Source: Clostridia bacterium
Lineage (GTDB): Bacteria > Bacillota > Clostridia > Christensenellales > Borkfalkiaceae
DNA length: 64,000 bases
Direction: 5' to 3'
Assembly: GCA_021202395.1 (NCBI GenBank)
Contig: JAJQDC010000062.1
Coordinates: forward strand, 124,001-188,000
Shown here piece after piece: positions 51,132-51,512 of this stretch; within the stretch, counting starts at the first letter, position 1, and each line of letters opens with the position of its first letter. The position numbers and the translations under genes were made by a program. The notes below the pieces were generated by a model. The model worked only from the letters and a program-made list of their open reading frames with translations. It ran no database searches and was not told where the DNA came from.

Positions 51132-51152
51132 ACCGTAATTGAAAATTACGGT
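51132..51152 (-). terminator. Terminator-like hairpin after the distal tRNA-like repeat
   Basis: A 9-bp stem ACCGTAATT/AATTACGGT with a 3-base loop; on the minus strand it is followed by ATTAATTTTTTT. Confidence 0.75.
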
Positions 51153-51159
51153 GTCTTAA

Positions 51160-51255
51160 TGGAGCTGCTAACCGAGATTTGTAAGGAGCAAAGCGACGGA
51201 ATAGCAAGAGGGCGCAGCCATCGCAGCGTCCATATTTCGGTGATACGGTTAGCAG
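51160..51255 (-). repeat. tRNA-Thr-derived, CCA-ended repeat, copy B
   Basis: 96 bases, reading on the minus strand from CTGCTAACCG to CGGTTAGCAG plus CTCCA. These ends form a perfect 10-bp stem. The last ~23 bases repeat the 3' end of the adjacent tRNA-Thr (T loop, 3' T stem, acceptor strand and CCA) with one inserted base. The middle ~70 bases are not tRNA-like. It differs from copy A at only one base within the unit (51211 region, G versus A). Confidence 0.8.
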
Positions 51256-51265
51256 ATAAAAACAG

Positions 51266-51293
51266 CTGCCGCTACATTTTAATGTAGCGGCAG
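51266..51293 (-). terminator. Terminator-like hairpin between copies A and B
   Basis: CTGCCGCTACATT pairs with AATGTAGCGGCAG (51266-51278 with 51281-51293); minus-strand tail TGTTTTTATC. Confidence 0.75.
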
Positions 51294-51298
51294 TAAAA

Positions 51299-51394
51299 TG
51301 GAGCTGCTAACCGAGATTTGTAAGGAGCAAAGCGACGGAATAGCAAGAAGGCGCAGCCATCGCAGCGTCCATATTTCGGTGATACGGTTAGCAG
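51299..51394 (-). repeat. tRNA-Thr-derived, CCA-ended repeat, copy A
   Basis: Second 96-base unit, same ends and middle as copy B, 139 bases from it (unit plus terminator hairpin). The 3' end sequence TGGAGCTGCTAACCG (plus strand) is shared by both copies and the tRNA gene, which follows 138 bases further on. A short open frame on each strand runs through the repeats but has no coding character. Confidence 0.8.
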
Positions 51395-51404
51395 ATAAAA
51401 TATT

Positions 51405-51430
51405 TGCCGCTACATTAAAATGTAGCGGCA
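51405..51430 (-). terminator. Terminator of tRNA-Thr
   Basis: TGCCGCTACATT/AATGTAGCGGCA stem six bases after the CCA of the tRNA; minus-strand tail AATATTTTATC. The stem is the same as that at 51266-51293, with the loop in reverse sense. Confidence 0.8.
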
Positions 51431-51436
51431 GTAAAA

Positions 51437-51512
51437 TGGAGCTGCTAACCGGATTTGAACCGGTGACCTCGTCCTTACCAAGGACGTGCTCTACCTGCTG
51501 AGCCATAGCAGC
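51437..51512 (-). tRNA. tRNA-Thr (anticodon GGT)
   Basis: 76 bases with an encoded CCA. Acceptor stem GCTGCTA/TAGCAGC, D arm GCTC...GAGC, anticodon arm CGTCC-TTGGTAA-GGACG with GGT, T arm ACCGG-TTCAAAT-CCGGT, discriminator T. It reads ACC and ACU. It is the likely ligand of the thrS T-box (specifier ACC). The rest of the 51064-51609 intergenic stretch consists of the repeats and hairpins listed separately. Confidence 0.97.

Follow-up and report, generated by a model that had tools for sequence, protein, structure and literature searches.

The closest described system is the RtT repeat of E. coli (RF00391, RttR, tpr), a tandem repeat with a period of 178 that stands behind one tRNA (Tyr) with no terminator between copies. 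In the tyrTV sequence, which we fetched, each repeat ends with AATCCTTCCCCCACCACCA and carries the complementary GCGGGGAAGGAT, and its structured core is unrelated to tRNA. RttR is annotated as a 171-nt RNA whose end is at the CCA of the tail, and the Rfam structure of RtT includes the outer stem between the left arm and the tRNA tail. In integrons, the attC site folds as a single strand, varies in its terminal part, and is repeated in arrays. Integrative elements (genomic islands) at tRNA 3′ ends have a displaced tRNA 3′ fragment at their far end and a boundary in the T loop or the anticodon loop. The CGTC-tagged palindromic repeats, or REPs, are short and interspersed, have no known transposase, and sometimes lie inside other palindromes; they are 20–40 nt long, with a stem of 8–9 bp, a loop of 4–5 nt, and an unpaired CGTC tag (Di Nocera et al. 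2013, PMC3733652). A search of openly licensed papers for tRNA-tail repeats gave nothing beyond citations of old RtT papers, and in these papers we found no description of a class of tRNA-tail hairpin units beyond E. coli.

The DNA analysed here (the window, 64,000 nucleotides) is part of contig C46 of a 1.83-Mb metagenome-assembled genome (MAG), here called G000. The locus of interest consists of a tRNA-Thr gene followed by two units and their terminators, as follows:

51437..51512, minus strand: intact tRNA-Thr(GGT), CCA encoded (ARAGORN; Rfam RF00005, 71.9 bits)
51405..51430, minus strand: terminator 1 (TGCCGCTACATT hairpin), 3′ of tRNA-Thr(GGT) (inverted repeat and sequence)
51299..51394, minus strand: unit 1, consisting of left arm, core E and tRNA tail, with its CCA end at 51299 (sequence, direct repeat, folding)
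51385..51394, minus strand: left arm of unit 1, CTGCTAACCG, complement of the tail CGGTTAGCAG (sequence and folding; stem covariation of E units)
51320..51384, minus strand: E, the core of unit 1 (..CACCGAAATATGGACGC...GCTATTCCGTCGCTTTGCTCCTTACAA), a repeat found interspersed in the bacterial family (genome searches)
51299..51322, minus strand: tail of unit 1, which repeats the tRNA 3′ end (T loop through CCA) and has an additional T (sequence)
51267..51292, minus strand: terminator 2 (sequence and repeat search)
51160..51255, minus strand: unit 2, consisting of left arm (51255-51246), core E and tail, with its CCA end at 51160 (sequence, direct repeat, folding)
51132..51152, minus strand: terminator 3 (matches the one behind this tRNA in the relative G032)

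Elsewhere in the window, positions 10928-11281 (plus strand) encode an RNase P RNA of bacterial class A (Rfam, 249.9 bits).

A sequence-only reading of this DNA had proposed the minus-strand order tRNA-Thr, hairpin, unit, hairpin, unit, hairpin, with two units of 96 nt that differ by one base, and both points were borne out by the sequence: the tRNA was called at the expected place, and the units form part of a 104-nt direct repeat (99%) with a spacing of 139. Both units start with CTGCTAACCG, which pairs over 10 bp with their own CGGTTAGCAG, and end with AAATCTCGGTTAGCAGCTCCA. The intact tRNA-Thr reads AAATCCGG at this place, so the extra T in the tail, which had also been pointed out, is real. 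The suggested pairing of the start of each unit with its own 3′ tail agrees with folding, in which each unit alone reached −31.9 kcal/mol (z = −3.9 and −4.7) and 0 of 200 dinucleotide shuffles were as good; when the terminator was included, the z values were −6.8 and −5.3. Terminator 3 is unlike terminators 1 and 2, and it is probably the locus's own because it matches the terminator of the same tRNA in G032.

The window object is a member of a broad RtT-like tRNA-tail hairpin class, with an interspersed repeat as its core. Two features of RtT are found in the window units, namely a repeat that carries the tail of the host tRNA with CCA and an outer stem between arm and tail. Among Rfam families the units matched none except tRNA, RF00391 (gathering threshold 45 bits) included, and judged by that model core E is not RtT.

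Core E has the form GACGC..variable hairpin..GCTATTCCGTCGCTnnGCTCCTTAC. It is present six times in G000, always joined to tRNA sequence: Thr (twice), Ser(GCT), Leu(CAG), and Ser(TGA) (twice). A search of species-representative genomes with the exact pattern gave 93 stretches with 117 distinct copies, nearly all in Clostridia MAGs. With two mismatches allowed, E was found in 51 of 201 genomes of the family; among 61 genomes sampled across the phylum, the only one with E was G000. One E unit (L070, CALUQQ010000008.1) is in a MAG labelled Gastranaerophilales, outside Clostridia, and this contig is possibly mis-binned. No E was found in viral contigs, and carriage by phage was rejected on that basis; assignment of E or E2 (a second core, described below) to a known RNA family was likewise rejected, the only matches being sub-threshold and due to chance.

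An intact tRNA typically precedes E by 75–150 nt, and the tail of that tRNA comes again after E; arrays contain up to four units. The junction is always TTA|C(A/G)A, which matches TTC(A/G)A of T loops or of the anticodon loop. At one locus (L104), E lies between 92-bp direct repeats that extend exactly from the T loop through CCA and the terminator to the edge of E. The layout is reversed at tRNA-Ser(TGA), where E stands at the anticodon loop and the tRNA 5′ half is repeated together with the upstream region. In G000 (contig C15, 24.0 kb; L006), two E copies are located 5′ of tRNA-Ser(TGA), each fused to the tRNA 5′ half at the anticodon loop; a run of N lies within the assembly of this array.

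Copies of E were also found away from tRNAs in the genomes G016 (L146-L162) and G084 (L164-L170), within high-copy dispersed repeats of the forms TGTCATT|CGACCGAGCG..GGAGAAATCT and AGATCCT|CGGC..CAGGATGAC (AGATCCT..CAGGATGACA), and at four loci E is nested in itself (L148, L156, L160, and L161). No tail-like duplication was seen at these sites inside other repeats or inside E. Because E occurs away from tRNAs too, E is an interspersed repeat.

The second core, E2, has the pattern GAGGGGAGGC..GCAGGTCGGCGG..CCGCCGAC..TGACAGCCC..GGGCTGTCA..CCGTGCGC..GCTCAA.. and is unrelated to E. It was found in 66 of 301 genomes of the family. Forty-one of 56 copies lie within 400 bp of an intact tRNA, and the rest are mostly later members of arrays, at contig ends, or next to tRNAs that ARAGORN left uncalled. 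The hosts of E2 are Pro, Ser, Leu, Arg, Gly, Val, Gln, Lys, and Thr tRNAs, and E and E2 together stand behind Thr, Ser, Leu, Pro, Arg, Gly, Val, Gln, Lys, Cys, and Met tRNAs. In G000 itself, tRNA-Arg(CCT) is followed by an E2 unit and tRNA-Arg(CCG) by a degenerate E unit, and at L267 a single tRNA-Ser has two units with different cores. Behind tRNA-Leu(CAA) at L215, there are at least three compact tail units of 93–95 nt whose core is a small hairpin only.

A third core type (GAAGAACCCCCG.GGGTTCGC..), similar to that of E. coli RtT, was seen behind Ser tRNAs at L213, L199, L052, L036, and L267. The best Clostridia tail units scored 28.2 and 26.2 bits against RF00391, below its threshold, and have a core other than E; a tRNA-Ser unit with the third core aligns over the full length of the RtT model at 28 bits. 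When 201 genomes of the family were scanned blind with this model, two marginal matches came up, the better of which is another tRNA-Ser tail unit; the second (L268) lies within coding-like sequence and was set aside as chance. The alignment is suggestive of homology between the third core and RtT.

The left arm of the units is an inverted copy of the tail that includes T-loop bases. Among 81 units, 38% reached a complement score of at least 8 to their own tail and 21% a score of at least 10, in comparison to 4.7% and 0.1%, respectively, for the tails of other tRNAs. The left arms are therefore not due to chance. In an alignment of 28 E2 units, a structure of 45 pairs was 90% paired, with 208 compensated cells compared to 65 in shuffled and at most 52 in slid controls; both sides had changed in 11 of the 15 tail-stem pairs, and RNAalifold, unaided, predicted the inner nine of these. 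The E2 arms track bases 57, 59, and 60 of the T loop of each tRNA. For E (19 units), the tail stem was compensatory in 11 of 14 pairs (42 cells vs 14). Covariation of the terminal stem, on which the sequence-only reading had placed weight, is thus present with both cores. Wobble pairs favoured the antisense strand by 10:2 in E arms and the sense strand by about 9:2 in E2 arms; since the two cores disagree, a strand preference based on wobble pairs was dropped.

These results bear on the three origins that had been offered for the units. The idea of a tRNA-mimic RNA family holds in that there is a structured family with a covarying tail stem and that RtT has the same plan, but the label of tRNA mimic is too strong, as the stem often ends short of the discriminator base (at L189, CAGCTCCA is left unpaired). 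An acceptor-stem mimic processed by RNase P is likewise weakened, since the stem ends vary and often do not reach the acceptor end. The idea that a repeat had invaded degenerate tRNA copies fits the interspersed nature of E; against this, the left arm is inverted tail. A decayed tRNA 5′ half is ruled out as the source of the arm because the arm holds an inverted T loop (e.g., TTAGCGGGATTTG / CAAATCCCGCTAA). Copies without tRNA sequence, which would have counted against the sequence-only reading, exist in the case of some E copies only. The notion of a tiny mobile element at the tRNA 3′ end is in keeping with the T-loop boundary, the arrays, the sporadic spread, and the empty sites described below, but no recombinase was found and the arms change from tRNA to tRNA.

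The frequency of tail units was estimated from genome searches and fetched loci. A downstream tail copy was present at 65 of 157 fetched tRNA loci, a set enriched for E, and an upstream copy at none. In G000, 6 of 34 tRNA genes have tail units (4 of 31 by automatic scan, with two more found by hand). Orthologous loci were collected by means of a neighbouring DnaD-like gene, not by means of E, and units with several different cores were present at 7 of 20 congeneric tRNAs; in G045, G002, and G030, the site at the same tRNA is empty. No tail units were found at 116 tRNAs from other families of the phylum, a sample of best-scoring tRNAs that has a mild bias.

G032, whose flanking gene has 82% amino acid identity to that of G000, carries a single E unit at this tRNA, and the extra T is there too. 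Between the two genomes the unit is 90% identical, in comparison to 46% at four-fold degenerate sites and 58% in the downstream DNA, which suggests that it was either conserved or recently exchanged. G045, which is about as distant as G032, is without the unit. In G000, terminators 1 and 2 differ from the probable own terminator of the locus, which sits 3′ of unit 2. Among 74 arrays, a terminator follows the last unit in 64%, compared to 5–8% in controls, and the tRNA's own terminator sequence is reused in only 17.

The architecture, the boundary, the covarying stem, the recurrence on many tRNAs, the interchangeable cores, and the empty sites in relatives are shown by the data. We propose, with about even confidence, that the units are RtT-class tRNA-tail hairpin modules that insert at TTC|RA of tRNA loops, duplicate part of the tRNA, and multiply in tandem. 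A module would insert in the T loop or, for core E, also in the anticodon loop of tRNA-Ser(TGA); insertion would duplicate the adjacent part of the tRNA with its terminator or promoter, so that the tRNA would remain intact, and the units would then multiply through tandem duplication. Insertion with duplication of the adjacent tRNA part would explain the intact tRNAs, the arrays, the sporadic presence, and the reversed layout at Ser(TGA). The inverted tail needs something more: it may have formed on insertion by fold-back copying, or the pairing may have been selected afterwards. We infer that the units spread because they insert as DNA and not because of a function in RNA, and that recognition acts on the folded strand. 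Several points speak against insertion: known transposition rarely gives direct repeats of 60–90 bp; the left arm fits the tRNA at hand, a fit that would not arise if units simply moved from one tRNA to another; and the conservation of the unit between G000 and G032, together with the terminators after last units, could mean an RNA function. No recombinase or transposase was found that tracks the units. Y1 genes were present in 16 of 60 genomes and absent from the E-rich G016 and G084, and mobilisation of the IS200/Y1 type (RAYT/REP) was rejected because Y1 does not track E and the ends of the window IS200 differ. The end hairpins of this IS200-type Y1 transposase gene (32677-33144, plus strand) are its own and bear no relation to E. 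At two loci (L253 and L254), the closeness of an E copy to an IS200 looks like chance.

A different reading, possible in our view yet rather doubtful, is that the units encode a structured small RNA like RtT, transcribed by read-through of the tRNA terminator, released with a CCA end, and acting in regulation or as a decoy for tRNA enzymes. Because all E2 helices as well as the tail stem covary, terminators follow the last units, and E. coli RttR is a precedent as an annotated RNA with its end at the tail's CCA, this reading is alive, and the identity of the G000 and G032 units also favours it. However, a terminator parts the tRNA from the unit in Clostridia and no promoter is evident, presence is sporadic among close species, E also occurs outside tRNA contexts, and the wobble pairs do not favour the sense strand overall.

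It is quite improbable that the units are site-specific cassettes, i.e., minimal integrative elements at tRNAs on whose tiny attP, with the 7-bp T loop as core, a tyrosine integrase acts in trans. The boundary in the T loop or the anticodon loop is as expected for tRNA-targeting integrases (Ms6, for example, integrates in a tRNA T loop; PMC1762012), the units form tandem arrays, the terminator of the G000 units differs from that of the locus, and in G028 the tRNA-Thr holds a real integrase element beside an E unit (L253). Yet the overlap differs (TTACAA vs TTCAA), cassettes with the same core at different tRNAs share no terminators, their left arms are local, and among about 230 E and E2 copies none was seen in a longer form that has genes between the tRNA and the tail; long E elements with an integrase were looked for and none was seen. 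At L253 (G028:C1:211500-214000), the tyrosine-integrase gene ends beside an attR-like tRNA-Thr tail, after which come, directly, the E unit and an IS200. Least probable of all, and in our opinion very unlikely, is that the units are replication debris without function or dedicated machinery, left when tandem duplication and template switching by fold-back at the hairpins of tRNAs and terminators made inverted and direct tail copies, into which common palindromic repeats fell. The inverted and direct copies beside terminator hairpins, the several unrelated cores within one architecture, and the nesting of E in other repeats would be consistent with debris, but E2 occurs almost only in tail units and has a conserved covarying fold, the sampled tRNAs of other families have no units at all, and the conservation between G000 and G032 is high.

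In comparison to known systems, the hairpin modules share features with several. Core E resembles the CGTC REPs as a short palindromic interspersed repeat that has no known transposase and sometimes lies inside other palindromes, and its other strand ends with GCGTC. It has a GACGC/GCGTC edge and a variable inner hairpin but is longer than a REP, at 50–70 nt; also unlike REPs, its conserved flank (TATTCCGTCGCT..GCTCCTTA) is long and it adjoins tRNA tails. The units are similar to integrative elements at tRNAs in their displaced tRNA 3′ fragment and loop boundary, whereas they are only about 95–170 nt long, carry no genes, and contain the tail also as an inverted copy; in the 96-nt window units, an integrase gene between the tRNA and the displaced tail is absent. 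As with attC, they are folded, have a variable terminal part, and form arrays; the IntI core sites GTTRRRY / RYYYAAC were not seen on inspection of the aligned E and E2 units, and no integron integrase context was found. This class brings small elements into the set of those known to use tRNA T loops for insertion.

We tentatively suggest, at somewhat less than even confidence, a superfamily of structured elements, not recognised before, in Clostridia and Enterobacteria that takes its closing helix from the host tRNA 3′ end, has interchangeable cores (E, E2, and RtT-like), and spreads between tRNA genes by way of a single strand in folded form, without damage to the tRNA. The combination of unrelated cores with strong covariation indicates that the tail stem itself matters, and dozens of natural replicates are now available to ask whether its role is in RNA (processing, regulation) or in DNA (tRNA-sparing insertion). 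RtT was long an E. coli curiosity; the same tail and inverted tail now appear on many tRNA genes in another phylum, so that a feature known from one E. coli locus belongs to a broader class that recurs in one uncultured gut Clostridia family. Both RtT and the Clostridia units are tandem repeats behind a tRNA, with the tail through CCA, a complementary left arm, and a structured core unrelated to tRNA, and the Clostridia units differ from RtT in having many tRNA hosts, a terminator for each unit, and several cores.
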